From positions 10,909,943-10,973,942 of the forward strand of contig OX387603.1 in assembly GCA_947568835.1 (NCBI GenBank): a stretch of DNA of 64,000 nt, given 5' to 3'. A program made the translations under genes and the position numbers. Of the stretch, positions 3,604 to 58,000 are shown piece by piece. The stretch comes from Protonemura montana (lineage: Eukaryota > Arthropoda > Insecta > Plecoptera > Nemouridae). Within the stretch, counting starts at the first letter, position 1, and each line of letters begins with the position of its first letter. Under the pieces are notes generated by a model. The model did not search any database. It was not told the origin of the DNA and saw only the letters and a program-made list of their open reading frames with translations.

Positions 3604-3840
3604 ACCTTTTGTTTTCTTGCAATACTGCAAAATTTCTTCGCACATGGCTGGTCCCTTGCATTGAAGTTCGTGCGTGGTCGGCTACGTCATCGAAGCTGGA
3701 GGCCGAGTAAAACGCTGACGGCTGCTCAGCTGTTTCTCTGAGGTGTGAGCTCTGCATGGTGCGATGACTTTGTCCTGATTTTCCTCGGTCTGTAATCAAA
3801 TTTCATTGTTAGAAGTCTTTTCTGAAGTGCAGCATTTTTG
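3604..3840. repeat. Diverged duplicated segment, copy 1 right half
   Basis: Continuation of the segment interrupted at 2480. The shared landmarks with 4120-4350 are GCTGGTCCCT, a GATGAC/GATGTTGTCCTGA block, CTGTAATNAAATTTCA-like sequence and CTGAAGTGCAGC/CTAAAGTGCAGC. Similarity is moderate and interrupted. Confidence 0.5.
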
Positions 3841-4035
3841 TGTGAATATTTTTTTGAGTTCAAGTGAGAACTCAAATGGATGTAACAGTAAAGAAAGTTT
3901 TTTTTTTTAATTAAAGCGTAAAATATTTGGTCTTATCTCAAAATTTGAAAAAAAGGCAGATCAACCAGGCGAATATTGAATTGTTGAGGTGGTACAAACA
4001 TTGTGAAACAGTTGTGAATCAATCACTTTTACATG

Positions 4036-4350
4036 CTTAAAGGGCCTTTCATCAATCACAATCTATTCTTATTACCAAAACTTACATTCTAGTGATGGAT
4101 GCTTTTGATTGCAGATCCTTTGAGTTGAAGTTAAGGCGTCATCGGCTCAGTCTTTGAAGTCTTGGTTTCAGCGCAAAACGCTTGCCGTTACCTAATGTTA
4201 CTCGTTTTGTTCTTCTCGGCACTCAGCTGGTCCCTAGCGAAGAGAACTCGGCATGATGCAGTGATGTTGTCCTGAGATTCCCCGACCTGTAATTACATTT
4301 CACTGTTAAAGCTTCCTAGAGCATGTAAAGACTTTCCTAAAGTGCAGCAG
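4036..4350. repeat. Diverged duplicated segment, copy 2 (uninterrupted)
   Basis: This is the intact counterpart of 2400-2479 plus 3604-3840. It runs from GGGCCTTTCATCAATCA through GATTGCAGATC to CTAAAGTGCAGC. It has no long open frame and no terminal repeats I could define. Confidence 0.5.
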
Positions 4351-4359
4351 GCTTAGGGA

Positions 4360-7300
4360 AACATGTGCTAGAAAAGTGTCGTATGGTCTTCAAATTTGGA
4401 AGGGTTGCAAGAAAGCCGGTGGCAGCACACGTACGTTCAGGAAAATATGAAGATGAATTTAATAGCGAAGTATTGTAACGCAACAGCTGCACAAAGTTTG
4501 TACTCATTTACGAGTGCATTACAAATCTTGTGGCTGCTGCCGAACTGGTCTGGACGTTTGAGAGGCAAGGATAAGGAAAATTGAAAGGTAAGGGAGGCTG
4601 GGGTTGGGCTGAGCCAACAGGGCTACATGGGCACATTTTAACTGCTTTCCTTAAGATTGTAATGGAAAATAATATTTGCTACATACAAGAGAGCAGAAAA
4701 CGTGTAGGTAATTTGAAGCTGTAAAAATGGATGGAAATAATTATGCATACAAAGTCGGTATTCGGCCAGAAGGATCTAAGAGATTGAGTAAAAATGTCAA
4801 ATATAGCATAGAAAACTCTGAAAAAATATTTTCCTTTGTGGTTGAAACTAGCATTGTGAATTACAAAATAGCTAAGTACTAATAAAAAGGAAGAGTAAAA
4901 TTATTGGGTGTCTTTGAATAAACTTTTGTATTAATGTGGTGCAGGAATGTGGGATCATAAATGTGGACTGCAAGCCTTGCAATAATTAGGACCGGTTTGA
5001 TTTCAATGCAAAATAAGCAAAGAAAGCAATTAATTAAGAAACTGTCGTGAAAATTTGGTTATACCTATCTATAAAAATCTCATAGGTTCCGAAATTTTCC
5101 AAGAGACAGTGAACTAGAAGTTGAAGACTAAAGAAAACGTTGGAAAATTATGGAAATGGATTTTCCATTGGCGAGCGAAAAAGCGAATCAATGTATTCGA
5201 TTATTTGTACGGTTAATTAAAATATGTGTTTAATGTGAAAATGGCGAGCTAACAATAGAAAACCTGTTGTTAGTTAAGTCTTGCATACTTTTCGCACGAC
5301 CCCAAGCAAATTTCAATGCACAATTATTGTGCAGTTATTCGGTTAATTAATAGTGCGTAGGTCTCTAAATTTTTAGTAATACCATAGTGGAGAGGTGTAT
5401 GTAACTTACAGAACTGGTTTTGTCAGAATTTGCACACTTTTAGTACAATAAATCACGTTTTCTTTGCTACTGGGTCGACCGGGTACCCACCGAACGGTTT
5501 CCCGGCGCAAAATGGCGGAGATCGGTCATGTTCCTGTGCCCCGGCCAAAGGAAGGCCATCGTCGGCACGTGCCGTTATACTCAGCGGAGAACAATGTCGA
5601 CCAATGGCGACCGACTTCTGGATTATATTTGAGAAGTGAAAATTACCAAGAAATTCGTTGAAATGAAAGGCCCGTGAAAGAAATATGAAAATAGTGGAGA
5701 TAATTATAGAAAATAAATATTATCGTCAAGTTTCCCATGTACCACCCACTACATTTTTTAACTAGAATATCAATTAGGGTAATAATTCGACCTTTGTATT
5801 CTGGTCTGGCCTTCAGGCAGACAAAGCCGGCAAAACTAATTTCATGGAACGAGACGAAACTAAAGTATTCGGATTGTTAATTTATTGATGTCATCAAAAT
5901 AAAACCAAATATGAAACTTACCGGACGGTGCTGATCGTGATTTGAGGAACGATAACACTAATTTTTTTCGATTTTGATCGGAGGTATTTCAAGCGAGTTC
6001 ACTTCCATTGCCGTGAAACGGAAAACGGAAGGAAGATGGCGCGTATCTCCTCACCCAAGTCCAAAGTCATATTGGAGGGTAATAAAAATATTCGTAACAA
6101 AAATATCTGCGGGTTTCATACTGATGTTCAGATAAAAAAAATATGTATGGGCGAAACTTGAAATAGGTTGGGTACCAAACTCAAACTAACTGGGTGAAGC
6201 CAAATCGGCGAAAACACTCTCAAGACTTCCTTTGCCTATCGCAGTGACCCGAGAGGTCAAAATATTTTACACGGACACACGTGAACCGAAATTAACAGGA
6301 AGATGGCACAACTTATTAGACATACCTTATTTCGTAATAATAGCGCTGGGTCAAAAAGAGATCACTTACAGAATTACACCGACGCGGTGGAAAGGAGTTG
6401 TCAGGTTTATTTGCCAGACAATTTCTTGGCCGACAAGTTCACGCTGACCTTGCCGGTCACCAGCCGCCCTCTAGTTACAAATCGCGTCGCAGTTAGTGCG
6501 GGGAAGTCGCCTTTCGTTCCATATTTTTCAAACATGGATTTAAAATAACGTCCATTTGAAAACTAATAAAATCAAGCAAACATAGTCAAATCCAATTAAA
6601 ACTGCAAATGCGCTATAAGCATAGCTAGCATGCGCTAGCATACTTGACAAGTGTTCACAAAAACAAAACGAACCAACTTTAGCATGGTTAGTATGTTTTT
6701 TGTCCAATTCCAATCAACCCACCTCAATTCAAATCACAAAACATCTCGGCCCTACTCGTCGTGCCCTGTTTAGAAGACAAAGCTCGAGCAAAGACCATGG
6801 ATGGAGTTATACTTTTCTTTTAGTGTGTCATACTACACCAATGACAATACGCGTACATGTTGCTGCAGCTGTTGTGGTCGCTGTTATGAAATCTCTGGCA
6901 AATCGCTGGCCGGGTTGTCAATCTTTTGGATGGAAGCTTTGAGTGTAGCCATAATATGAAACCAATCTCAGTTGAAGATTCCGCATGCAGCTTACATGTG
7001 ATTCAAATATAGGTACTTTGCTTGTTATTATTTGACTGGGAAACGTTATTTCACACGATCTGTTGCTGCTAGCATCGGCCTGCTAGTCCACCTCGGGTCG
7101 GTGACATTCCGAACGTAGTGATGGGATAGTATCGTTAGTCAACCCTCACAATATTGAATCAAATCGCAATACTTTATATGAAAACTGTCTAGTTGACGCT
7201 GAAAAATGCAGTTAACACTGCATATGAGTTGTTATTCGGGTATTAAGTCGTTGCACTCGCAAGATTTTCCAAGATCTGCTTCTTTCCTAGAGATAGTATG

Positions 7301-8745
7301 TCTCGCAATCTCTTACTCACGGTTTAATTCACTATTAGTAATTCCCTCGAGCTATTTCATGTAAATTCACTGCCGATCAGTGCTGGCCAAATCCGGGCTG
7401 TTTTGAAAAGTAGAAATTCTTTGCTTCCGCAATACTAGCCAAAGTTTGACCTACTAACGGACGCTCTCTGATTTCTACATGGTCCTCTGGGAGGGATGGT
7501 GAATACCGCCCCTACTCTAGCAACAGCTCCACCGCCTCATGCTTCGTACTTTTAAATCATGCAGCGAGTTAAAGTCGTTCAGGATTTTTCATACCTAATA
7601 CAATCGTTGAATACTAACCTAATTCCTTTAATAGCCACCATGATTGCCCATGAATTAGAACAGCTTGAAATCAATTTCCTGGAATACGTTTGTGAACCAC
7701 TGATGGGCCGGAAACTTCTTTTAATGGGCCCACAAAGAAGCATGCATTTGGTGGTGTGATTTTTATATTACCTTTTAAAAGTCTGGGCACTATAAACAAC
7801 TAATCACAATCGTCAATCATGATACCTGTATTATCCTGCATCATCTTTGCATCACCTTTGACCTGCATATGCTTACATTGCCTGGAGGTGAAAACAGCGT
7901 TCGTTTCTTTCTTGAGACTTACATATCGTAATGGAATTGCAGCTATCAAACGCTTTGCTGCTCAGTTTTTAGTGTGAGCACATGTTATTGAACAATTATT
8001 CATTGTTATTTCTAACCATAAGTGCGGTGATTGAACTCGGCCAGTTGTCATCGGCATGGCCAACATATTAGCTTGGTAGGAGATCTAGCAATGCATGGCT
8101 CTCTGATTTTAGTTGCATCACATTTTTCTGGATTTTATGTCTAGAACGATTGTCTGGAATGAATGTCTGTATGTCTAGGTATATTCTAAAAGTGAGGGTA
8201 GTTGACGGAAGATATTTCCTTCTGTTGGTGTTCTACGTGGGTCAGACAGAGACAGAGCCTAACCCCGGCAGCGGTGTGCGAGAGAGAAGATAATGTCATG
8301 TTTTGCTTCTCTCACGAACGTGCCTCATATACATTACATGACGGCAATGCTAGGATATAACTAGGGAACTTCACTAGAGTTTTTTTTGTGTGCTCCAATT
8401 TAGTTTCAAATTTTGCACTAGAGGCCCGTTACTTTCCAGCAAATCTTAAGTTTGTTCCTTTAGGTTTCTACTGTCTACCCATAATATCACTAATCACCAG
8501 TCCACGCTATTCGAAGGTCATGCTAGTGTCTTCTCCATCTGTCTTTCATTCGCCGAGGCCCGGACTCGCCATTCACACCCTGCGGTAGGTTATAGCTGCA
8601 ATATCATCGCACAATTATTGGAAGAGGGGGGCTAAAAATTAAATCTTCAGAAATTGAACTCCTTTCAATATCAACAGACAATAAGTATCAGTTATGGCTT
8701 TATGGTGGGCTCTTCGCTGGGCCCTTTACTGGGCACTCGGCCCTT
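4360..8745. other. Long non-coding interval, no confident gene
   Basis: The longest frames here are under 90 codons and lack coding signature or homology I recognise. A frame starting ATG at about 5511 in good Kozak context (CAAAATGGCGG) encodes about 49 residues ending in a stop near 5659 (MAEIGHVPVPRPKEG...). It could be a first exon or micro-ORF, but no partner was found. Sequence near 7118 (TAGTGATGGGATAGTATCG) resembles a hAT terminus, but no matching end was found. Confidence 0.4.
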
Positions 8746-8749
8746 CCCT

Positions 8750-8905
8750 GGGACCTCCGAAGTTAAGCAACACTGCGTTGGGTCAGGTATTGGATAGGTG
8801 ACCACCGAACGGTTTGTCGTGTTGAAACACCGGTCCTTGTGAGATCACCTAAGTTAAGCAACACTACGCTGGGGCAGGTATTGGAAGGTACATGACCGAG
8901 ATAAA
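8750..8905 (+). mobile_element. 5S-derived SINE fragment with two heads
   Basis: Two 5S-rRNA-like modules lie head to tail. Each contains AAGTTAAGCAACACTRCG and GGTATTGGA. The second is introduced by the SINE's own leader (ACCGAACGGTTTG...GTTGAAACACCGGT). No SINE body follows, so this is a 5' fragment or a dimeric-head derivative. A genuine 5S gene is excluded because the 3' third of 5S rRNA is missing in both modules. Confidence 0.7.
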
Positions 8906-9910
8906 GTGGAGCAATGGTAAGAATAACCTCACAAAATAGCGTCATACACATGTAAACAAATAATTAATAGTTAATAATAATAATAATTAATAATAACTAA
9001 TATTCTAAGGTCCATCATAACCAAAGAATAAAAACAAAGAATGATCAAAAGCAATTCTTTATTTGCAGCATCTACAATTTGTATTTCAAACCTGACGGTT
9101 CCCAACAGGTCGTAGCTGCAGAACAGCATGTGTTAAGTTACGGCACAACAGATGGTTTCCTGATCCAACATCTAAAAGGTATGTCTCTGTTGCTTGTGGC
9201 TAAAGCTGGCAAAATTGTAATTCAAAATTTCGAAACAACATCTAACTGAATATTATTTCTAGGCCAAAAAGACACAGCCTAGGTACTGCGTAGTCTATGG
9301 AAAGGATGGAAAATGACTTGCATCGGACAGCACTGATAAAAATGTCATCATTTGGGCGTGAAAGCTCGAAGGCGTTCTCAAGTACTTATATATATTTTAT
9401 TAGACATTTTAATATTTGTCCTACTATAAACTAGGAAAAACACTTTTTCAAACTGGGTTTTTGAATGGTAAGTAAAAACAACTAATTTTCCAGATATTTG
9501 GTGACATGTATTTTACTTCAACAAAGGTCTCTGTGACATTTTGCCGCAAAGTCCAACCTTGATGAAGTAACAGGCATACGTTGCAAAACCTCGGGAAAAT
9601 CAGTTGTTCTTAGCATTGAAAAGCCCAGTATTTAAATATCTTTTAAATATATCTAGGGATTAGGTTAGATAAAGTAGACATGAGTCAAATTAATCATAAT
9701 AATCTGGGGAAGACGTAACATTATTTTAGGTTTGATGTTATGATGTGTTTTTTGGATTTGCTCTGCATTGAAGAGGTTTGCGGCCCTCGGAAAGGTCTAA
9801 CGTCTCGACGTTTTGAAAAGGCACGGCTCGTCATCTTCAGGAGAATGATGTTGTTTGTTGTTCAGTTAAAAAATTCAGTTAAAACAACATTATTCCTACC
9901 CGTTCCGTTC
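8906..9910. other. AT-rich intergenic DNA with degenerate repeat remnants
   Basis: No gene seen. Around 9785-9845 the minus strand reads like the widespread LINE or Penelope 3'-region phrase (CTGAAGATGACGAGCCGTG...AAACGTCGAGACGTTAGACC). This is a hint of a retroelement remnant, not a firm call. Confidence 0.35.
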
Positions 9911-9913
9911 CTA

Positions 9914-9975
9914 CCCTTGTAGGCTAGGTTAGGTACATCATCACCCACTCCATCATCATCATTACCCACCCACAG
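9914..9975 (+). mobile_element. 5S-SINE body fragment
   Basis: A short match to the SINE family body in the plus orientation: AGGCTAGGTTAGGT, then CATCATCA and CCACTCC blocks. Only the region before the 3' tail is recognisable, so it is a truncated copy. Confidence 0.45.
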
Positions 9976-10194
9976 GAACCGAACTCAAACAGTGTGGCAC
10001 AGAATGCTCACTTCGAAGAGATGCTGTGTTTCTCCGGCAAAGACGTGCTGAGCATCAAGGCTTCATTGTTCCCCGTGCATCGTCAGAAGCTGCTTGGATT
10101 GTCAGAAGCTGCTTGGATTCGTGGTCGGTTTCTGCGGGGGAAAGGTGTTCTGACGTCTACGGTGGAGGTGCCGCTCTCCACGCCCATGTACTAA
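9976..10194 (+). CDS. Candidate exon or retroelement ORF fragment, unknown
   Basis: After an acceptor-like CCCACCCACAG at 9961-9975, one frame stays open for 72 codons to a TAA at 10192. It has a coding-like composition unlike its AT-rich neighbours (EPNSNSVAQNAHFEEM..., ending VEVPLSTPMY). It contains an 18-19 bp direct duplication around 10084-10120 (TCAGAAGCTGCTTGGATT twice). I do not recognise the protein. It sits between SINE debris and low-complexity DNA, so a transposon-derived fragment is at least as likely as a host exon. Confidence 0.3.
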   Translation, partial: EPNSNSVAQNAHFEEMLCFSGKDVLSIKASLFPVHRQKLLGLSEAAWIRGRFLRGKGVLTSTVEVPLSTPMY

Positions 10195-10950
10195 TAGTTC
10201 AAGAAGAAGCAGTTCCAGTAAGTGGACACAGATCTATAAATATATGTATTATCTATCTATGTACTTACGTATCTATTTATATATTTATCCCAACTAAATC
10301 AATTGTCCCCTCCCCACCTCTTAACCTGATACCAGCGCTACATTCAACAGTCAGTCATAACATCTCTAACAACAGTAACAAACACAAAATGCGGAAACCT
10401 TTATATTCTCGGGAATTCTAGAACTTTCTCTACAATTGTACCACTCGACGCCAAGTTTCTTCTTCGTTAAGTTGGACTTCCTCTCTCTTTTCTTTTTAAC
10501 CACAACAAATATCCAGTCTCTTGGTAGCCTATTCACAATATCTGGCCTCTTGGCACCCTATTCACAATATCCAGCCTCTTTGTTTATTTTATTTATTTAT
10601 TATTTTCTTCAATTGAACAAAGAACAAAGTTATGTGAAGTATGGGGTCAACAAAATACTAAAATAGTAAAAATAGTAAGAATGTCACAAGAACATCCATG
10701 AATGATCCCAATATCACTCGAGTTTGACAACAAGAAATCACAATAACAGTGAATAATAAAAAAAAACAATAAGATACAATAAAAGAATACAATGGGATAC
10801 ATTCAAAACATTCGTACAAGCAACACAAATGCGTTAGGTCATTTTATAAAGTATTTACTTAAACCACAGATTCTTAAACTATAAAAACACTTTTTTACTA
10901 AATACTGTTTTAGTTTACTTTTAAACAAGGATTGTGAGGCACCTTATTTG

Positions 10951-11499
10951 CAGTGGTGTAGTCGAGGGTATACGCGGGTATACGTCGTATACCCAAAAAA
11001 CTTTTTGACACCGAGCGTATACCCAAAAAACTTTTTGACACCGAGCGTATACCCAAAAAATATATACAGGGTATACGCCCAATAAATACTCTTTGCAAAA
11101 CTTTAAAATGTGTTTTGCAACGACAATTCTTAATCTCCCAACAACCTGCACTATAAAAACTCGAAAAGCAAAGTTTATTCCGAATAGTGAGTAGTCCATG
11201 TATAGTATGGTTCGTATGATCTGGATGGGTATGCAATGGTTTTTCTAAGCAATCAACGTACTTATTCAACCCACCCGAGGAAAGCGCGATTGCAGCTACC
11301 CCAACACCAAGTAGTAGTTTTAGTGTTGATAGAAATGAACTATCTATGAACTATAACTAGTGAATAGACTGAAGGTAAAGAATTATAACCCCCCCCCCCC
11401 CCCCCCCACAGTACCTAACCTAGTGATGACCACGGTATTTGGAACTCACAGCCTGATATCCCAGCATATGCCCAAAAAAAATGTAGGACTACACCACTG
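10951..11499. mobile_element. Non-autonomous hAT transposon, 549 bp
   Basis: The termini are CAGTGGTGTAGTC and its inverse GACTACACCACTG (one or two mismatches just inside). The element is flanked by a perfect 8-bp duplication, CTTATTTG, at 10943-10950 and 11500-11507. CAGTGGTG-type ends with 8-bp duplications are characteristic of hAT. Inside are a 30-bp tandem repeat (10986-11060) and a 19-base C run (11389-11407). Minus-strand frames of 92 and 119 codons show no complete transposase domain, so the copy is non-autonomous. Confidence 0.9.
10986..11060. repeat. 30-bp tandem repeat, 2.5 units
   Basis: The unit CGTATACCCAAAAAACTTTT plus TGACACCGAG occurs at 10986-11015 and 11016-11045, with a half unit at 11046-11060. 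It lies inside the hAT element near its left end. Further GTATACCC words on both sides could be subterminal transposase-binding repeats, an inference from how hAT elements are built. Confidence 0.8.
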
Positions 11500-11717
11500 C
11501 TTATTTGTATTATAGAAATAAAAGGTTTTTCCTAAGTCTATGTTTTAATCAAGAGAGGACACATTTTATTTTTCTTGAGAAGAAGTGTTTCAGTTGACCC
11601 TTGTCATTTAGTAAATGGAAATTAAATTGATGTAAAATAAATAAGCCTGTAAATTCTGCACCTTTGTGGTGATTGTAGAAGGGATTAAGAACTGTATCGT
11701 GAATCAAGTGTGTGTAT

Positions 11718-11925
11718 TTAATGTTCTAGGTCTGCATACGTGGTGGCATGCATGGGTGTACCTGGGGGTGACTGCCATGCCCTAGCCCTGGCTGCCTTGG
11801 ATGGCCCCTTGACATGGCCAGGCATGTTCTGTGCCACACCAAAGATCTCAAGCTCCTCGAGCTCCTGGCAGACTTCCAGGTAGGGCAAGGTTTCATCACA
11901 CAACAGCAAACCCTTCTACATAGTC
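11718..11925 (-). CDS. Candidate exon on minus strand, unknown
   Basis: A GC-richer island in AT-rich DNA keeps one minus-strand frame open for about 63 codons (LPYLEVCQELEELEIFG...). It ends close to a TAG within the island. The composition looks coding, but no homology is recognised and no splice partner was found. A degenerate retrocopy or transposon fragment is an equally good explanation. Confidence 0.25.
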
Positions 11926-11999
11926 CTATCTTTTATTTCAAATCAACAGCTTTTATAAAAAAAAATTAATAAAATTACTTCATTTAAATCAGTCCTAGC

Positions 12000-12697
12000 C
12001 AGGGACCGGAATCGTAATTAATTGATATTTTTTTAGGATTGGAATCAGAATTTTTATTTTCTGGTAAATGGAATTGGAATCAGAATCGAAATTTTTTCTT
12101 TTAGTCAATTGGAATTGGAATCGGAATTTTTACTTTTAGTCAGTCGGATTTTTTTTTTTTACCTTAAAAATGTTATTCATAATTAACACTGTCTATGTGG
12201 TCTATGGGCTGAACTAGCTGAGAATAAAACAGGTAGGTTGGTCGGTAAAAATTTATCTTGGTTTTATCATGGTTATTTGTGGTATTTTTGTTTCGACTGC
12301 CAATTCCATTCTTTGCAGCCCATGGGTACTTTCGATGGTTTGATTTTCAGTGCAAAGTCGTGTAGGGCGGCTGTCGACTTACCGAAGTGAGAACACTATA
12401 GTTTCATTCTTGTAGGCAGCTTCTTGACTATGAGGAAAGAAGATTTGAAATTTTATAGAATGGAAATCAAAGTTTGCTTTTTTATAATTTGTATTTTGAT
12501 AGAGACCAAACAGAACAATTAAAATCAAAATCAACATTTTTACTGTGAGTTTTCTGGGATCGGAAGTTTTCTTAGGAGCTTTCCGGGATCGGAATTGGAA
12601 TTTTTATTATTTTCCGGGTGGAATCGAAATCGGAATTGGAATTCATATTTTGTGTAACTTGGAATTGGAATCGAAAAACATAAAAATTTCGGTCCTG
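12000..12697. mobile_element. Degenerate hAT-like element, about 0.7 kb
   Basis: The left end CAGGGACCGGAAT and right end ATTTCGGTCCTG form an imperfect inverted repeat. The flanks GTCCTAGC (11992-11999) and GTCGTAAC (12698-12705) match at 6 of 8 bases and fit the hAT pattern of T at position 2 and A at position 7 only in part. Both subterminal regions are filled with degenerate GGAATTGGAATCGGAAT-type repeats. The interior (12290-12400) resembles the interior of the hAT copy at 31949-33462 (GGCTRYCGACTTNCCGAAGTGA), so they are probably relatives. Confidence 0.6.
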
Positions 12698-12705
12698 GTC
12701 GTAAC

Positions 12706-14350
12706 CCTTCTTATTATTGGGAACACTAATAACTTTTAAAAATGTGTGTTCAAACAAGGTTTGGAATCTGGATCTTCACCTGTTGCAGGTTACTTGGACA
12801 TGTTATTTTTGAGAAGATTTTAGTGCATTTGATGAGAATGGTGGATCTCGGGGGAGAAGAACCACACTGTACCGCATAACATACGTCTTTCAGCACTTTT
12901 GCCAAAATTTGAGAGAAAAAGAAAAATTAAATTGCATAAAAATGCATTCCGATGTTAAAAATGCTGAATGATCTTGCATGGGTTCCATATCCCCTTGCCA
13001 TGGTACCAAATCGTTTGAAGTGTGCTCGTGATTTAAGCGTCGATCTCGCGGCGGTGAGCTGGATGCTGACTCCTTCCGTGCCCGAGCTGCTTGTGTCATA
13101 ACCTGGATTGGAATTAATGAAGTGAATTCGGTAGCGAATACGCCACTGCCACCATCCTAGTAGTATTGGCCCCTAGGCAAGCATGATAAAATGAGAATGG
13201 AAAAAGAGCGATTGACTACTGGTTCAGAGGTCCGTCTAAGACAATACTCAGAATAGTTGGGAACTGAGGCGAAGCAAAGAGAACATTTGTATTGACAATC
13301 ACAATAGAACGATAATTTAATATAAAAAACTCACATGATGAAGATACAGTAGAACACGTCAAGCTCAAACGAGAACCAAGATCCGAGTCCCCGAGACCCT
13401 ACACTTCGAGTTGGTAGAACCCTGCGTGACTCAGTTACATCCCCTCTCTACACCCTTAGCTGTCCTGTTAGGGTGGGCACAGGTTCAGAGCGACGATGGC
13501 TTGGTGCCACAAAGATAGGAATTTAGAGTGCTGCTAAATTGGCAAGCTTTTAAGAAAGAGAAACCATTATGAATGTTATAATCTGGCCATTGTGCCACAA
13601 TAATTATAGATCGCGAGAAGAAATAGGAATTCACCCCCGACGTGTAGGCGTTCTTGGTTCACGTCTCTACGTATACATGAATGATATGGGAATAATATAT
13701 AATCTAATAATCTTAGATATAAACACACATATAACTATATTAACACACACTCAACACTTGCGCACCAGGGTAGGTGCTGTGAAGCCGCGCAGCTATTCAA
13801 GCGAAGCCATCACGAACAACAACCGACGTTTGCATGTTTGATTTGGCACAGGTAGGCAGGGACAGAGAAACTTTTGTGTTAATTAACCTTATATAAAACC
13901 TGTAATCAAGATGACGTCCATTTCAAGTAATAGGGACTGTGGCTATGTGGGGTTGTCGTTATGTGTCACTTTGCATTTGGATGTAGTTTCTTTATGGTAA
14001 TAGCAAAAATTGGTTAAAACAGCTGGAAATAGTTTTAATTTGTACATTGTTTTTGTAATTGTTTTTATTGTCTTATTATTCCTACGAATGGACAGACAGT
14101 TGCACAAATTTGTACAGATAATTTACTGCTTACAATAATGCAATACATCTTATAGTCATATAAAAATTTAAATTATAAACATTAAACATTAATATAAAAC
14201 TCAAACAAAAAATTATAAAATTATAAAATTACCTTAAATAGTTTGATGAGATTTGACTTAAGTACAGATCAGGGAAAAAATGTTATTAATTAGGAAACCA
14301 TACAAACACTAAAATAGTAACATTAACAGTTATAGTAATGAGGGCCAACT
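12706..14350. other. Non-coding DNA, no confident gene
   Basis: Short frames near 12960-13100 (both strands) and 13569-13841 are open but show no homology or splice context. The last part (14040-14350) is very AT-rich and probably belongs to the 3' UTR of the LINE fragment immediately to the right, which reads on the minus strand. Confidence 0.35.
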
Positions 14351-36440: not shown

Positions 36441-39066
36441 CTACATCATGCCGCCCATACCTCCCATTCCTCCCATGCCCCCCATACCACCCATGCCGCC
36501 CATGCCGCCCATGCCTGCTGGTGCGTCTTCTTTGGGTATGTCAGTGACGACAGCTTCCGCTGTCGTCAATAATGAAGCAACGCCGGCTGCGTCGGTTAAA
36601 GCTGTGCGAACCACCTGCGAAAATCATAAAAAGTTAGACAAAAGAATTTTTAATTCCTAAGATCGAATAGAAAACAAAACTCTACATTTTTCTTCACACA
36701 GTTTTGCATGCAAATGTTTATTTTGCCTCTATGATTGTGAGATTGAAAAATGCGGACATAAATTTTGCATATAAGTGTTTTCTAGCTCATGAACATACCT
36801 TAGTGGGGTCAATGATGCCCTGCTCGAACATGTTGACATACTGATTGTTTAGGGCATCGTATCCCCAGTCCTGCTCGCCTTCCTCAACTTTGCTGACAAC
36901 AACACTGGCATCGATTCCAGCATTCTTTGCAATCTGCATGCAAGGCATACGCAGCGCCTTGCGCACAATGCCGATACCAATCAGCTGATCCTGGTTGGTT
37001 GGTGTCAGGGTAAGCAGCATGGGGATGCAACGGAGGAGAGCGGTGCCACCACCAGCGACGATTCCCTCCTCGACAGCAGCACGGGTTGCGTTGAGAGCAT
37101 CATTGACGCGATCCTTCTTCTCGTTTACTTCCACTTCGCTTGATCCGCCAACTTTGAGGACAGCAACACCTGAGCTGAGACGGGCCAAGCGTTCCTGAAG
37201 CTTTTCCTTCTCGTACTCCGAAGTGGTGTCAGCAATCTGATCTCGGAGCTGTGCAGATCGGCGCTCTACATCCGAAGTCTTGCCCTTGCCTTTGAGCATC
37301 AGGGTGTCATCCTTGGTTACGGTCAGCTCGCCAATCTGGCCAAGATCACTGAGTTGCACATCCTCAATCTTAACGAGGTTGCCTTCGTCACCAAAAACAA
37401 TACCGCCAGACGAGACGGCAATATCATGGAGGGTGGCCTTGCGGTTGTCACCAAAACCAGGGGCCTTAACAGCCACTACTTGCAGGCCAATCTTGAGTCT
37501 GTTGACGACCAGAGTCGAGAGGGCTTCACCGTCGACGTCTTCGGCAATGATAAGCAGCGGTTTTCGCTGAGCATTGGCCAACTCGAGGGCTGGGATAATA
37601 GACTGCACGGTTGAGATTTTTTTTTCACTCAGAAGGACTAGGGCATCTTGGAATTCGACCTTAGCACCTACCAAGAGAAAATGATAATAGTTGAGCATTC
37701 TTTGGTATGGGGCCTTTTCTAGTATTTTTTATGAATTTTTAGTCAATTCTTTATCTACTAAAAATGAGCATATAATAGCACAAATCAAGAAATTTTGCAT
37801 ACATATCCAAGTTTAGAAAATAGCTTTTTACTGAAACCTGGCACCATTTTTTATTCACTATCTTTACTAACGGAGTACTCACCCTTGGAGCTGTTGATAA
37901 AGTAAGGCGAAATGTACCCGCGGTCAAACTTCATTCCCTCGATAACTTCTAATTCGTCTACAAGGGTCTTGCCATCTTTGACTGTAATGACACCCTCCTT
38001 GCCAACACGCTTCATGGCATTTGAGATGAGCTCTCCAATGGCACGGTCGCCATTGGCTGAGATGGTGGCAACCTGTGCAATCTCCTCGGGCGTGGTCACT
38101 GGCCGTGACAGTCTCTTCAGCTCCGTTTTGATGCCTTCGACCGCTAGCATCACGCCTAAAGAAAAAAAAAAAACATTTTGTTTTATGGACACTACATAAT
38201 TAATGCATACTATCATTCAGGCAATTGTTTAGGTGAAATTCTTATGAGTTGGTATCATTTAAAACTTGGTACATTTTTGTATTGCAGACTATATAAATAC
38301 AAATTCCTTGGGCAGAAAAAATTTTCAAACAATGCCACTATATTATTTCATATTTAATGATTATTACATGATCATTTCAATGATCATTAAAGGGTATTAA
38401 AATTATTTGTTATTGCTCACCTCTTCGGATTTCAATAGGATTGGCACCCTTGCTAATCTTCTCAAAGCCCTCTTTGGCAATAGCCCGAGCTAGAACAGTG
38501 GCAGTTGTAGTTCCATCTCCTGCCTCCTCATTTGTGTTGTTTGCCACGTCTTGCACCAATCGCGCACCAATATTTTGGAAGCGATCTTTGAGCTCTACCC
38601 CTTTGGCAACAGTCACTCCATCCTGCAAGATAAATATTTGTTTAATTGTAATTGTAATTTATTTGCGTCCTCTTACAATTGTACAAGGTAGTACCGTGGT
38701 AAGGTATGATTAAAAATATCAAGTAATAATGTGTAACGTAATGAGAGTGCATAAATATGCACAAGACTCAGGTACTATTAGGAAGGTTGGATACATCTTA
38801 TTTATCGGCTTTAATGAAAAGTGGTCAAGTATACACCAGGAAATACCACTTGCCTTCGTTATCTTAGGACTACCCCACGACTGCTCCAGGATAACGTTGC
38901 GGCCCTTTGGCCCCATTGTAACGGCCACAGCATCGGCCAAAATGTCAACTCCCTGGAGCATCAGCGCTCGAACCTCTGGCCCAAACCGAACATCTTTTGC
39001 AAATGTGCGTCTCTGGCAGACTTGTCTTAATGCCGCCGATCGAAGAACAGTGGGAAGACGATGCAT
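36441..39066 (-). CDS. HSPD1: Mitochondrial chaperonin HSP60
   Basis: Five coding exons (minus): 39066-38854, 38622-38421, 38155-37883, 37667-36799 and 36614-36441; 576 residues (human 573). An N-terminal mitochondrial presequence ([20 protein letters not shown]) precedes [15 protein letters not shown]. Chaperonin signatures are [17 protein letters not shown], the ATP-site [31 protein letters not shown] and [18 protein letters not shown]. The C-terminus is the flexible (MGG)7-MM tail. It forms the seven-membered matrix folding ring that works with HSP10. The intron after exon 1 has a GC donor (AAG|GCAAGT). A strong acceptor (AATTTTCAG) directly abuts the ATG, so at least one 5' non-coding exon is expected upstream. 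The start at 39066 is the first ATG in frame after that acceptor. Confidence 0.97.
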
Positions 39067-45281: not shown

Positions 45282-48066
45282 CTAGCGTGGCGTGGGCAGA
45301 TCGGGTCGTCCGCGGGGGTCTTCAGGAGTCCACAATTTGGCGAACATCACTCCTCGACACGCGTTCTCCTTGTCGCTCGACCAGGAGAGAGAATGTGCTG
45401 CGAATGGAGCTCCGTACCCTCCTGTAGGAATAAGGAATAATAAGTTGGGCCTCGGGCCACATTAGGTGCTTGCGATATTTAATAACTCTCCAACAGAGTA
45501 CAGAGATTTCTAAAACCATATTTTCAAGATTTTACGCAACGTTTTTCTAACCATGTGTTATTGTTTTTTGTTTGCTTTCATGTTTTTTGTTTTTTTATAA
45601 AATGCATTGAATGTTAAAGTGACCGCGCAACAATTTTCCACGTAACGTGTATGTTTTTAACGAGACGTCAGGACTTTAAGTGGCAAATTCAGCACCCATT
45701 TTGTTAAATAACTTTTGAATTCTAAAATCGTTAGAAATAAATGGTGACATGGTAACACCAACGAATACACTGACAGTGACCGTCCAGACATATCAGGGAT
45801 GTATGACTGCTGGAAAACGTGATAAAATGGATTCAGAGAATGTTCACTACTCTTTAGGTAATCTTCCCGTATCGTTGATATTAATTTTCATGCGTGTGAG
45901 CTGGATTTACAAAGAATGACCGGGAAGATTGCATATTTGCGGGCGAAAGACTGGAGCGTTGAGAACGCATAGAAAAGTGTCATTTGAAAAAGCACTAAAA
46001 TTGTATGCGTTATGGAAAACACGTCTAACTATTCCTTTTGAGTTGATGATAGGATTGGTTTTTGTTTCATTTTTATTTTACATTAAATAGTAAGAAACGA
46101 ACTACTAAACGCAGAAAATCATGATGCCATGCGGTAGGTTGAGAATAAATGCATGGCAAACGTTTATAGGTCTGATGCGAGCCGCTAATTTCCCTTCGAA
46201 AGAAACCCCATGCTTTGATGTATCGTGGGAATAATTCCCCGACAGCCACATGCATGGAATGCCGGCTCTAGTGGAATCGGGGATCGATGCTGACTGACAC
46301 TCGCGCCGTGGCTCAGCACTGCAGCCGCATCCCCCACAAACAGCTCTCTGGCTGCCAATATTAGCGGAGACAATCGTCCTATGAGCCGATATTTTCTTTG
46401 TGGGATAGAGGGAATCAAGATGACTGAGAATTTTAAGCCTACGAATGCTATTTTAGCAATTAAGTGAAATTATTGCGCAAACAAGACAATTTCCTCTCGT
46501 TGTCGTCGTGTCAGAAACATCTATCGAGGGTCGTCTGTGACCGGGGCAAAACTTACATTTGTGCCTATCTATTGGGGAAGAGGTAAGGTCGATATGCTAT
46601 ACAACAGTGATATGACTAATCATGCACTGCTAAGGTTTAAACTATGCTCTGCGATACTTGATAATGAAGTTAAATAATGTACTGTTAAATAAACAACTGA
46701 TAATGGAGTCAGTGGACCACACTGGACTATGGAGTCACTATCAATTATATATTTAACTTGACATAATAAAACTTGCCCTAACTTCAGGTCCTCCTTGATT
46801 CCTTGATACTTTTCAACTTCTCGAAAACAACTGGTATGTCCCCACAATAAACCCACAGTATTCCCATTACCCACAGTGGCTGCAGTAGGTATCCACAATA
46901 ACCACATCCCACTAACCATGTCTCAGCGCCTTTAAAAATTGCGTGGCAAGTACAAAAAAAGGCCAAACCGTTCAACATCACTTATGCACTTATGCACTCA
47001 CCCCTAAGAATGACCTTTTTTGGTTCCTCTCGAGGGGGCTGACTGGAGACGCCCGTGGGCCCTCCACCCCCCGCGGCGGCCATCTTGTCGGAGGCCACCA
47101 GATCGGACAGGAAGCCGATGTAGCCGATGGCCAGCTTGAGGGTGTCCACCTTGCTCAGTCGCTTCTCGTAAGGTAGAGTCGGGATGTGCGCACGCAGCCC
47201 TTCGAACGCGTCGTTGATGCTCTGCATTCGTCTGCGCTCGCGCAGGTTGGCGGCATGTCGCTGCTGAAAATTTCACGCGCAGGCGTCAGTTTTTGGTGTA
47301 GTCAGGTGGTACTTTTGCTCATAGTCAGAATCAACTCAGGATTAGTCTTTCGAGTCTGCCGAAAGCTGCCAGATGCCTTTTTTTGGCATTTTCTTTTGGA
47401 ATAAGTAGGCAGAAGTATGGCTAGGCTGCCAGAGAACTGTGCGTGCTACAATAATGCCACTTACAAACAAACTACTAACCACTTACTATGCAGTGTAAAG
47501 TGCGTAGATTGGGACCTGTTTTAAGCAAGGGTCTTCGAAAGCTTTCAGTTTACTTGCGTTTCAATATTTTGCTGAGCTTCTATCTCGCTTATGTAGGACG
47601 GCAATCATTTTAAATAATCGAATGTTTATGTCAAGGGATGACTTGCGCATTTAACCAAGGCAATACTATATTAACCTACTTAATCGATTATGAAATAGAA
47701 TAGGTAGGTACTACATAGAAAACCATATCCATGCATGCAGTGAAGAAACAAGATGACCAAGAAGAGAAAAAAGATTGAAAGATGTGAAATCGCCTTCAAA
47801 ATCACCACTCTCCCACATTTAAATCCCAATCATGCTGTTATTGCTGCGCTGACCTGCACCTGCTGCTGTGGACACTTGCTGCGCCGGGTCGTGGACTCGC
47901 TGCCACTGGAGGCGCTGCACTCAGACGAACAAGAAGACGCTGTGTCGTAGAGGAACAGGTCCGTGGAACTCGAGCACGAGTTGGAACCCCCTGCCGCCAG
48001 GTAGCTCTGCGGGTCCAGCAGGAAGCCCCCGGGGCCCTTATCCAGTTCGGGCAGCCCGTCGAACAT
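45282..48066 (-). CDS. PTF1A: bHLH transcription factor PTF1A (fly Fer1 orthologue)
   Basis: Three exons (minus): 48066-47854, 47263-47002 and 45421-45282; 204 residues. Exon 1 is serine-rich ([20 protein letters not shown]). Exon 2 holds the basic region and both helices: [20 protein letters not shown], then [20 protein letters not shown], then [16 protein letters not shown], nearly identical to vertebrate PTF1A. Exon 3 holds the conserved RBPJ-interaction segment: [12 protein letters not shown] and then [14 protein letters not shown]; the tryptophans of both blocks are present. It forms the PTF1 trimer with an E-protein and RBPJ and specifies pancreas and GABAergic neurons in vertebrates. 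It is shorter than the vertebrate protein. The frame is open upstream of ATG 48066 to an acceptor-like ATCCAG near 48145, so an extra 5' exon is possible. Confidence 0.93.
46224..46252 (+). promoter_or_regulatory. RBPJ-like site with nearby E-box in ptf1a intron 2
   Basis: CGTGGGAA (46224-46231) matches the RBPJ/Su(H) consensus. CACATG follows at 46247-46252, 15 bases away, roughly two helical turns. Weaker than the six-base-spaced sites because the E-box core is not the preferred one. Confidence 0.3.
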
Positions 48067-52043: not shown

Positions 52044-55000
52044 ATGGATTGCTTTGATCCCGAAATGGATATGGAAGGCCATTGCGTTGTCACAGCAACG
52101 CAGCCTCTAAAGGAAGCTCTAGAGCCTTTGAGTGACTTTGAGGACCACTGGCAGCGCACCGAAGGAGGCATCTTGCCAGGTATGCTCTCTTAAATTTCAC
52201 TGCAAACTGCAATCTACCCTAAACAAACCCCAGAAAAACTAACGTGATTCTTCCTCGACAGGCTCAGAGTATGCTTGGCTGAGTCGCGGCCCAAGGTTTC
52301 GGGTTGTTTCAACCTTGACCGGTGCCTCGGTGATGGACTGGAGCTTCAACTCGCCCCTTGAGAGAGCGGTCATCACTTGTGCTATTCCACTTCCTGTAAA
52401 TTTTGGCCTTAGACACAATGGAAAACAAGATATAGGTCTGCGGCTTGCAGTTGGCCTAATTGTAGAGGGACATGGAGGCTTGGTGGTTGTCTTAGCGACA
52501 GGTCCAGCCATTCGCACACGTGTGCTCAACTCAGTACGCGTGTACTCAAAAGTGAGTATGATAATCTTATCTGTTGAATCTATAACTTGCTTGAAATTGT
52601 TCTAAAACAATGCTTATTGTTTTATTTAAATTCGAGTAACATTTATAGTTAGAGCCAGCTATTAGAGACAATTATTCTGGGAAATACCTACAAATATTTC
52701 CATCAGTGTAGAGTCAAGTGTAGCTATTCCATCATCTAGTAAATATATTAAATATTAATGGTAGTTTGCTATAGGGTCATTCCATGTGTAATCACTCACT
52801 TTTAATTAAATTTCACTTTGACCGACCCAGATTTTGATGAAAATTGGTATACTTGTTAAGTTTGTTGACTTAGGGGCTATTTTTTTTTTTTTTTTTTTTT
52901 GGTCCAACCGTTCGGATATTACAAGGGGGGGAAGTTGGGGTCATTTTGCCCCCCGGGCGTGTAGTGACCACCCTTTCTACGCAATATCTAGGGTTCTATG
53001 GGAGCTACAGAGCTGGGAAAAAAATCATCTGAAAGGTAATTTCATACCCTACCTGAATATGGAAACAAAAATGACGATATGTTAATACGAATTTAATTGT
53101 GATTTTACACATCTGCATTTTCCAAAATGACCATATCGCTGATGAGTCATTTTTGATTTGCCTGATTTTTTTTCTATATATACAGAACATACATATGATC
53201 ATGTGTTCCAAAAATCAAGATGGGTGTTTTACCACTTTCCAAGAAAAAAAATTTTTTCTATAAAAAAGTGCCTTTTTGCCAGTAGAACAGCATTTTGATC
53301 ACAATTATTGTGATCAGAGCACTGGCATATATTTTATATTAAAGTTGATTTTTGTTTGCACAGTTGCATGTTCTTGAAATGTTATTCTCTACAATACAAA
53401 TCGATTGTTTGCCATATTCCTGTAAATCATGGATCAAGTTGAAACAGTTCATAGAAGTCAAAAGTTTGTTCATTTCTTGTCTGGACTTGCATCTACAAGA
53501 ATCTTAAAATGGTATTCCCTAGAATACAACTATAGATTGTTTGTCATGCTCCTGAATCATGGATCAAGTTGTAACAGGTTACAAGTAAAAAGTTTGGTAA
53601 TTTCTTGTCTGGACTAAAGCAATCAGTCTCTGGCCTCATGTTGATGAGGATAGAAGCTAATTTGCTCTCAAGCACCTTTTATTTAGAGATTCATAATGTG
53701 CTCAATTTGACTGTTCTTTGAAGAAGAATGTGGACCCATCGAAGATCTAGCGATTAAAAGCATTGAAAGTTTCAATAGTGACCAGCAGTTATCATTAGCT
53801 CTGCGTACTAAGTGTGATAATGTGAAGACCGTGTGTCATTTACATGAAAAGAAATTCCTTCGTCTGTATAGCTGTCACCACAAGTTATGCTGCGATCCGT
53901 TTCAGGCTCACTGTGGAATAGTGAAAGTTAATGGGTTAAGAGAAATTAATGCAGCATCCAGGACGAAATACTTGGAGATTGCCGACCTCATCCCTGGAAA
54001 GAAATTATGCTCAACTTGCCGTAAGCTGCTCTCGCTCAGGCTGAAGGAACTAACAACCGTTTCTGTTCTAACGCCAACTAAATCCACTGAACTTGACCTA
54101 CCTTTCGTGGACATACCCTGTGAAGCAGATGCCGTGAATCAGTCTTTAGCTGCATTTGGTGTGTCACCTATTAATACCACCAAACTAAAGGGTAAATCTA
54201 TGTTTTATTCGAAAAGAAAGTTCAGCGAAATAACACAAGGTGTAAAGAAGAGATTGGAACTAGTATCTCCCAGTAATGAAGAAATCAGCAAAGAAGATTT
54301 GACATCTTCAGAGGAGTGCAAGGACAGCATCCGTGATGGGTCAGAGATAATAGCACAACTGAAAGAAAAGTTTAAGACGAGTACCAGAAGCGAGAAAATA
54401 ACAATTTTATCTGTGCTTCCAAAAAGTTGGAGCATTAAGAGAATAATGCAAGAGTTCAATGCATCTAACCATTTGGTACGTAAAACCAAACAACTAGTAA
54501 AGGCCCAAGGGATACTGCCATCTGCAAATCAAAAAGCAGGAAAAACTCTTTCCCCTGATTGCATTCAACTGATTGAAGAGTTTTATGAAAATGATGATGT
54601 AAGCCGTGTCATGCCGGGTAAAAAAGATTTTGTCTCGGTTAAAGTGGGTGACAATCGAGTTCACCGCCAGAAGAGACTAGTGTTAAGCAACTTAAGTGAA
54701 GTGTATCGCAGCTTCAAAGATAAATATCCTGACATCAAGGTTGGATTCTCGAAGTTTGCAGAGCTCAGACCCAAACATTGTGTTCTGGCAGGAGCAGCTG
54801 GGACACATTCTGTCTGTGTCTGTACGATACACCAAAACGTTAAGTTGATGGCTTTGGGAGCAAAGCTGCCTTTGCTTTCAGACGGTACCATCAAATCATA
54901 CCAACACTGCCTTGCCAGCCTCATGTGCAACCCCCCGCTTCTCAACTGCTTTGTAGGAAAGTGTGGCAATTGTCCGGGAACCGATGAACTTCGTGAATGG

Positions 55001-58000
55001 CTAGAAATCTCATTCAGTGAAAATTTCATAGACTCTGTGACTTATAAACAGTGGCTGTCAACAGACAGATGTACCCTAGAGACAATTACGAAACCTACAG
55101 ATGAGTTTGTTGACTGTTTTATTGAAAAATGCATTTTATTAAGAAATCATGATTTTATTGCACGGCAGCAAGCGGCATTCATGCAGGAGAAGAAAGCCAA
55201 CCTTAAACCAGGGGAAGTTTTAGTAGTGGGCGACTTCGCTGAGAATTATTCTTTTGTGCTCCAGGATGCTGCACAAGGTTACCATTGGAATAACAGCCAA
55301 TGCACCCTTCACCCATTTGTGTGTTACTTTAAGCCTGAAGATCGAGACATACAACATTTAAGTTACGTTGTCATTTCTGACTCGCTAACTCATGACACCG
55401 TTACTGTGCACACTTTCCAAAAGCACCTGATAAGACACCTGAAACAAAACATTTCGGATGTATCCCATTTAATTTACTTTTCTGATGGAGCGGCAGCCCA
55501 ATATAAGAATAAGAAGAATTTTTCCAACTTGTGCCATCATGAAGTTGACTTCGAACTAACTGCTGAGTGGCATTTTTTTGCCACATCCCACGGTAAAGGA
55601 CCATGCGATGGAGTTGGTGGGACTGTAAAACGAAATGCAGCACGGGCAAGTTTACAGAAACCATATGCCGACCAAATAATGACGCCGATAGACTTTTACC
55701 GGTGGGCAACAGAAAATGTGTGGACTGTAAATTTTGTGTTTGTAGCCAATGAAGAGATTACAGCAAATGGCATCAAACTTAAAGAACGATTCAAAGAATT
55801 AAAAACTATCGTAGGCACAAGAAGCTTTCATGCGTTCTACCCAAAATCGCTAACTTCCTTACATGTGAAACACTTTTCTCTTTCTGAAGAAATCAACATT
55901 GTGAAGATTGTTGAGAAAAATGAAGAAGGAGAAGAAGAAGAAGAAGAAGAAGAGGAGGAAGCAACAGCAGCAGAAATACCCGAGTTTGAGTTCAAAGACG
56001 TGGGCAGTTTCATCACTGTAGCATACAACGAAGACTGGTGGCTAGCGTGTGTTCTTGAAAAATCATCACAGTCTCTTGAACTTCAAGTCAACTTTCTACA
56101 CCCTCATGGACCAGCTCCATCATATTTTTATCCCAGTGTACAAGACAAACTAATTGTAGCTTTTGCTGATGTTTTAACACTGGCCGACCCCAACACGGCA
56201 ACTGGTCGAACATACTTTTTGTCGGCTACAGACACCAACAGGGCAACAGCAGGGCTTATAAAATATGTACCTCAATAAGGTAAACTACATCTCTCTTAAG
56301 ATATGCAAATTTGTACTTCATAGTAGCTATGATTGTAAGTAATGATCATTTTCTTGAATGTTGTCTTAAATTCAGTTCATATTAATTTATATTATGAATG
56401 AATTTGCAGAAAACATTTTTTTTTCTTGGAAAGTAGTAGAACACCCATCTTGATTTTTGGAACACATGATCATATGTATGTTCTGTACATATAGAAAAAA
56501 AATCAGGCAAATCAAAAATGACTCATCAGCGATATGGTCATTTTGGAAAATGCAGATGTGTAAAATCACAATTAAATTCGTATTAACATATCGTCATTTT
56601 TGTTTCCATATTCAGGTAGGGTATGAAATTACCTTTCAGATGATTTTTTTCCCAGCTCTGTAGCTCCCATAGAACCCTAGATATTGCGTAGAAAGGGTGG
56701 TCACTACACGCGCGGGGGGCAAAATGACCCCAACTTCCCCCCCTTGTAATATCCGAACGGTTGGACCAAAAAAAAAAAAATTAAAAAATAGCCCCTAAGT
56801 CAACAAACTTAACAAGTATACCAATTTTCATCAAAATCTGGGTCGGTCAAAGTTTGAGGTGAGTGATTACACATGGAATGACCCTATAGCTGTATATAGT
56901 TGTACTAAAAATGAATGAGGTATTCATTGTATTGAGAAAGCTCAACTTTGAAAACACCTGTTGCATGGTATTGCAACCTTTCTGCGTGCATTGATGCCGT
57001 AAAAAGTTCACTTTTAAATTCAAGACAAACAATGCAAGATTTATATCTCATTCTGACCTTGTCTCGCTAGGTGTTGTCCATGGCTTTGGTGACCAGCGAG
57101 ATGCAAGACGACGATGAATCACCGCTGCACTCAGCGCTGTGCCGAATGCAGGGTGTACTTGCACTGGGTCTACTCGGTGGCGAAGTGCTGCTGCTGGATC
57201 TCAGGGCTGACGATTCCGAAACGGACCGATTTGGAGGCGGCGAGACGCATGTGATGCCGTTCACTGTGCGCGACGATCTTGTGCACAAGATGGCCGAGGC
57301 GGCAATCACTGGCGATCATCTTGCCCTGATGCTCAACTGTAAGCACCCCCTCTTACCAATGTTCTAATTTTCCTAAGTGCTAGTTTCTCAGTGTTCAGAA
57401 CATAACAGGCAGATTGTTTGTTATTTGCCTGGCAACAGCCAATCAGATGTTTTTAGTTTGTTAACAGTCAGTTAATTACTTTCAGTACGAAAAGTTACAC
57501 TGGAAAACCGGCTCTTAAGCTTGTTAGAAATTGAATGTCAGTAGATATGTGGAAAATTATTCCAGGGTCTGATTTCTAACTGTACAAAATAACTAGTAGG
57601 TTAGAAGCCGTGGTTTCTAAAACATTTCTAGAATCTCTTTAATGATGCATAAATTTGCCATGCTTTGGATTTTTTCTTGTTACTTATTTGTATCTTATGA
57701 AAGAGTAGCATCGATTTTAAATTTACTTATTTGCTCTTAAAAAACAGCCAGCTTCCTTCGTCTCCCACCGTGTTTAACACTGCGACACAATCATTTAATG
57801 TGTGATGTTTTTTTTCAGCGGGTTCGTTTGTTGAAGGGCAGTTCATGCTGCAGTCCCCTGATGGTAGAGTCAAGTCCAAGTCTTCAAAGAACCTGGTGGG
57901 CGTACCGTCGCTGCTTTATGTCCCGCAGTTGGCATCTCTTTGCATCGGTTTCAGCTTTGGAGTATTTCAGCTGTGGAGTCTCGCTGACTTCACCCTCCTG

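Follow-up and report, generated by a model that had tools for sequence, protein, structure and literature searches.

Which kind of DNA transposon has inserted into an apparent intron of the ELYS gene in the plecopteran insect Protonemura montana, and is its family still moving? The element lies in a 64,000-nucleotide stretch of contig OX387603.1 (assembly GCA_947568835.1, positions 10,909,943 to 10,973,942 of the forward strand), here called the window. An earlier note on this stretch had described an apparently intact transposon of unresolved superfamily. We consider it a copy of an autonomous cut-and-paste DNA transposon family (family A) that is most likely Sola (Sola2 type), with a probability of about 0.75; this placement is made by published feature descriptions and not by sequence homology. 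Family A has exact ends, 4-bp target duplications, 31 whole near-identical copies and intact reading frames, and three aspartates (Asp) of its protein are kept in a second family (family B). Family A may be active at present.

Copies, target duplications and age

The element spans positions 52774-56884 of the window, exactly as first proposed, with a length of 4111 bp and termini GGG...CCC. The arms are approximately 480 bp long, and their near-identity is borne out (52815-53257 pairs with 56411-56853 at 98% across 443 ungapped nt). The outermost arm pair is a perfect match of 32 nt, of which 6 nt are flank. Within the window, the 12-base terminus occurs at the two element ends only (up to one mismatch allowed). 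The flank had been read as TATA or TA; TATA stands on either side and is a 4-bp target duplication, and the TA reading is dropped.

The genome searched was the 258.5-Mb assembly in 34 contigs. Because the genome search scores the best candidates only, family counts were taken from exact or near-exact patterns. A search for further copies with the arms, suggested earlier as a check, found many, including 40 places at 100% and one partial match for a left-arm query of 481 bases (best 40 of 499 candidates scored). The protein query gave 53 places, all listed at 100% identity (best 53 of 493 candidates). A 31-base pattern at the start of the open reading frame (ORF) had 165 genome matches (82+83). 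The 26-base terminus had 328 exact matches (164+164) and 334 with up to three mismatches (167+167), a count that covers ends with three mismatches or fewer, so that worse-decayed or lost ends fall outside it. There are about two ends per copy, indicating that few shortened derivatives or decayed copies retain the 26-base terminus. Among the matches listed, one pair of ends was 4110 bases apart and one was 4112 bases apart. Twenty-nine of the 30 loci excised around protein matches hold exactly 4111 bp, and the other (L016) is interrupted. Of three extra loci, L064 is interrupted; L063 and L065 each have the full 4111 bp and a perfect duplication, giving a total of 31 whole near-identical copies read. 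Loci L001-L008, with one end each, were excluded from this total.

Perfect 4-bp duplications surround 27 of the 29 copies of 4111 bp, while the chance agreement of two random 4-mers of the same composition is about 0.006. The duplications differ between copies (TATA, TAAT, AAAT, ACAT, GTAT, and others), and A+T reaches 87% in the 27 duplications compared to 66% in the flanks. Empty sites of single copies were sought among the available sequences with no clear case, and a nested copy yielded one. In this composite (L016/L017, C1:22022459-22030684), a family A copy is inserted in the arm of another at TTAG (bases 87-90 from the element end), and ATAT is duplicated around the whole. The arrangement of the pieces implies the inversion of a segment after nesting. 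An intact arm has one TTAG, and the nested insertion has one on each side; as the element served as its own target, the sequence of the empty site is available. The target duplication, which the earlier note had left to be fixed from empty sites, is 4 bp, with TTAG as a supporting case. At another locus (L064, C4:3012150-3016450), a family A copy is broken past position 3624 by another that lies in reverse orientation, and the 860-aa ORF upstream is open.

Differences between copies are few. Across 119,219 bases, the 29 family A copies depart from their majority sequence at nine, including five private changes (one each in L009, L013, L015, L029, and L034) and a dinucleotide change common to L018 and L024 that is present in L065 as well. 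The private change rate is 4.2e-5 per site (95% interval 1.4e-5 to 9.8e-5). If 3e-9 to 1e-8 mutations arise per site in each generation, rates that are not from this host, the family would be approximately 4,000-14,000 generations old (bounds 1,400-33,000); gene conversion could reduce this estimate. Many near-identical full-length copies indicate very recent spread. Family A is probably seen during or just after a burst, and it may still be active.

The near-identity could instead be due to gene conversion or assembly homogenisation, which we regard as very unlikely. The shared dinucleotide change is TT-to-AA at positions 4008-4009 of family A, in a T run of the right arm, and it makes that arm more like the left; it hints at a sublineage or at arm-to-arm conversion, and to that extent it fits homogenisation. 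However, flanks differ between copies, 27 of the 29 each carry a 4-bp duplication of their own, copies occur on at least five contigs among the ORF-start matches listed, and the end counts leave little room for decayed copies. The earlier reading, a DNA transposon that moved recently, may be active and has three Asp that look catalytic, is well supported.

The transposase gene and family B

The window copy has an open stretch of 855 codons (53711-56278) that holds the three Asp motifs, in agreement with the more than 850 open codons originally reported. Its ATG is at 53696, and its codon 5 is TGA where other copies read GGA. An open stretch of 863 codons is present in 52 of the 53 scored copies, the remaining one being the window copy; in one natural copy (L010) the ORF is 860 codons from ATG. 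Among the 100 ORF-start matches listed (contigs C1 to C5), the window copy alone has T at the variable base. A missing 5' exon had been proposed for this gene, but the window frame is closed by a nonsense change that its siblings lack, and the exon is rejected. In the window copy, the next ATG in frame is codon 169 and lies past the Cys/His region of the N-terminus. This copy therefore likely makes no full transposase and probably no longer serves as an enzyme source. Because its termini are intact, it could still be mobilised by protein from other copies. "Apparently intact" is therefore a fair description of the sibling copies examined and not of the window copy.

The N-terminal Cys/His-rich region, which had no significant match in Pfam, may bind DNA, and a second Cys/His cluster may bind metal. 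Residues D513, D597, and D638 are the candidate catalytic Asp. The C-terminus had been called Tudor-like; Pfam and PDB sequence searches gave this no backing, and the ORF of family B stops before the region.

Family B was found with a degenerate HGKxxCDG pattern designed to skip family A codons. The pattern had 138 genome places (64+74), family B among them, and a second similar pattern gave equal counts. A full copy (C1:25744288-25748067) has arms of about 505 bp and TATA duplications. Over 698 aa, the family A and family B proteins share 46% identity, and the three Asp stand at 513, 597, and 638 in A and at 457, 540, and 581 in B (spacing 83/40 and 82/40, from these two families only). Family B resembles family A in its 4-bp duplications, near-equal Asp spacing, long arms, and identical first 12 terminal bases, and a short inner arm block is similar. 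It differs in its length (3780 bp), in its 689-aa ORF without the C-terminal module, and in its palindromic and rearranged derivatives.

Exact family B termini number 250 in the genome (127+123). In the first 100 of the list, 39 pairs account for 78 termini and the other 22 are single; 22 of the 39 pairs span 3778-3784 bp and 17 span 925 to 3694 bp, with recurring short sizes of 3304, 3090, and 2723 bp. Compared to L053 over 2440 bases, four of seven full-length copies are identical and one has a single difference, and the remaining two are indel-shifted and were left out of the difference counts. Full-length B copies are thus likewise young.

Palindromic loci (L039-L042, L045-L050, and L056-L057) consist mainly of two inverted family B right ends with a transposase fragment per arm. 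All six that were inspected are chiefly a head-to-head duplicated right end; the middle of one is rearranged. Five have perfect 4-bp duplications, and in the sixth, L049/L050, no exact right terminus was found. The palindromes recur in the three short sizes as if they had been mobilised. A foldback-like element of 925 bp (L061, C3:1485751-1486775; flank ATGC) has tandem copies, each about 45 bp, of family B terminal bases at both ends. This element and another short one, L062, are about 90-95% identical to B, indicating that the B lineage includes older derivatives as well. No third family was found by degenerate genome patterns, which were weak and covered some codon choices only; two of them missed family B too because the residue before DFAENY differs in B.

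Superfamily placement

Sola2 DNA transposons reportedly go back to Bao et al. in 2009. In the excerpts available of the papers cited here, Sola elements have a DDD transposase, 4-bp duplications, sizes of mostly 2-9 kb, and arms of 11-1124 bp (PMC10741241), and amoebozoan Sola2 elements make AT-rich duplications of 4 bp, with a transposase of 888 aa in one case (PMC3627910). Culex quinquefasciatus has abundant Sola elements (PMC7728395), and Sola-2 is among the putatively active elements of Hydra (PMC12220107). Family A has 4-bp duplications in 27 of 29 copies, in both further uninterrupted copies, and in the nested TTAG case, and its 4111 bp and arms of about 480 bp lie within the Sola ranges. 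Its duplications are AT-rich on average (0.87 vs. 0.66 in flanks), without being AWWT. It also resembles Sola2 in its element size and its single large protein (860 aa compared to 888 aa for DFa-2 of Dictyostelium fasciculatum), and its three candidate Asp would make that protein a DDD transposase as in Sola. AT-rich target sites and protein length point to Sola2 within Sola. Family A differs in its long arms, which are 12-21 bp in the amoebozoan Sola2 examples excerpted, and in having one ORF with no second gene seen. The superfamily, left unresolved by the earlier note, can thus be narrowed in part, and the element is probably a new Sola2-type family; a new superfamily is not demonstrated.

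Several observations weigh against this placement. The fit to Sola2 is good, but it is on coarse features, and we rate the assignment as probable. Twelve of the 27 perfect duplications contain G or C, so that family A departs from the AWWT published for one group of Sola2 (AWWT, or ATAT, AAAT, and ATTT, in the excerpt of PMC3627910). Two of the 29 copies have no matching 4-bp duplication: the mismatch of L017 is accounted for by nesting and inversion, and the flanks of L030 (TTTT/TTAA) are unexplained. The proposed Asp triad is drawn from just two families. Searches with the protein found nothing significant in Pfam (best E 0.05), the PDB sequences (best E 0.26), NCBIfam (E 0.12), or PHROGs, where an integrase model on window ORF residues 491-580 (E=0.18) is no evidence.

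No relative was found in phages and plasmids (tblastn), in IMG/VR (related-protein scans and terminus patterns), or in prokaryote genomes (related-protein scans); the patterns scanned for were short peptides and in some cases poor ones (e.g., a run of E). A literature search by terminus letters found no such element by title among the matches listed. Similar uncharacterised proteins are presumably widespread in invertebrates.

These results leave some room for a still unnamed DDD superfamily that is like Sola in duplication length and size without being homologous to it. The absence of a significant profile match in the libraries searched and the separate two-family cluster with its common 12-nt terminus are consistent with this idea, and the ends are not decisive because Sola termini are very variable according to the review excerpt (PMC10741241). 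We consider it unlikely, as the coarse features tested lie within the Sola description. It is similarly doubtful that family A is a new DDD superfamily or a deep new Sola branch, defined by arms of about 480 bp and by a protein with two Cys/His clusters and a C-terminal module particular to the family, that is actively expanding in an animal genome as almost pure full-length autonomous copies without the usual internally deleted ones.

Kolobok and piggyBac also make 4-bp duplications, and the purine-rich 5' ends of family A (GG...CC) match the 5'-RR/YY-3' rule of Kolobok in its excerpted description. However, both are described there as using TTAA, a sequence that does not occur among the 27 perfect duplications; the C/DxxH motif that Kolobok should have between its second and last catalytic residues was not seen by eye in the stretch inspected. 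Both are rejected, and we consider either assignment extremely improbable. Other superfamilies disagree in duplication or termini, and the exclusion of hAT, Tc1/mariner, piggyBac, and MULE in the earlier note holds. Tc1/mariner is expected to make a 2-bp TA duplication, whereas that of family A is 4 bp and variable. In the excerpted review, hAT and MULE make duplications of 8 bp and 7-12 bp, and Ginger has TG...CA termini compared to GGG...CCC here (PMC10741241).

Host locus, proposed mechanism and significance

The features of the window copy are collected in Table 1. Concatenated exon peptides from both sides of the element matched ELYS-bb, the ELYS beta-propeller (E=1.5e-5); the peptides were chosen by eye, and the 24.3 bits are slightly under the curated cut-off of 25.8. 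Tried singly, the exon peptides gave one weak ELYS match (E=0.021). Position inside an ELYS intron, as first suggested, is thus supported by a match just below cut-off. The window also contains a basic helix-loop-helix exon (46982-47272, minus strand; Pfam HLH, E=1.6e-21) and a chaperonin 60 exon (36787-37728, minus strand; Pfam Cpn60_TCP1, E=7.2e-28).

Table 1. Features of the family A copy and its flanks (window positions).
Feature	Position	Strand	Basis or remark
Left 4-bp target duplication (TATA)	52770..52773	.	Perfect duplication in 27/29 copies
Left terminal inverted repeat, 5' start GGGTCATTCCATGTGTAATCACTCAC	52774..53257	+	Arm comparison
Two imperfect 130-bp direct repeats, 5' leader	53372..53615	+	Period 130, 1.9 copies, 83% matches
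Transposase gene (860 codons and stop in family A)	53696..56278	+	Window codon 5 is TGA (T at 53708)
N-terminal Cys/His-rich region, codons 40-108	53813..54019	+	Partly kept in family B (CCxPF...CxxCRK)
Second Cys/His cluster, codons 371-459	54806..55072	+	Kept in family B, invariant columns
First proposed catalytic Asp, D513 (DFAENY)	55232..55234	+	Family A/B comparison
Second proposed catalytic Asp, D597 (FSDGAA)	55484..55486	+	Family A/B comparison
Third proposed catalytic Asp, D638 (CDGVGG)	55607..55609	+	Family A/B comparison
GAA repeat encoding acidic linker	55922..55961	+	Repeat scan
C-terminal module	55991..56275	+	No counterpart in the single ORF of family B
Right terminal inverted repeat	56411..56884	-	Arm comparison
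Right 4-bp target duplication (TATA)	56885..56888	.	Flank reading

In the mechanism we propose, the Cys/His-rich N-terminus would be the part of the 860-aa protein that binds the long arms, and both ends would be cut by an RNase H-like DDD site (D513, D597, and D638). Insertion would occur at AT-rich targets by 4-bp staggered cuts, and their repair would leave the 4-bp duplication.

To our knowledge, there is no Sola transposon with movement shown in the laboratory. Family A, whose full-length copies are many and nearly identical and have intact frames as well as exact ends, is a natural candidate for studying how Sola elements are cut and joined. The presence in one genome of family A, with about two ends per copy, and family B, with many palindromic derivatives, makes a useful case for the origin of non-autonomous copies.

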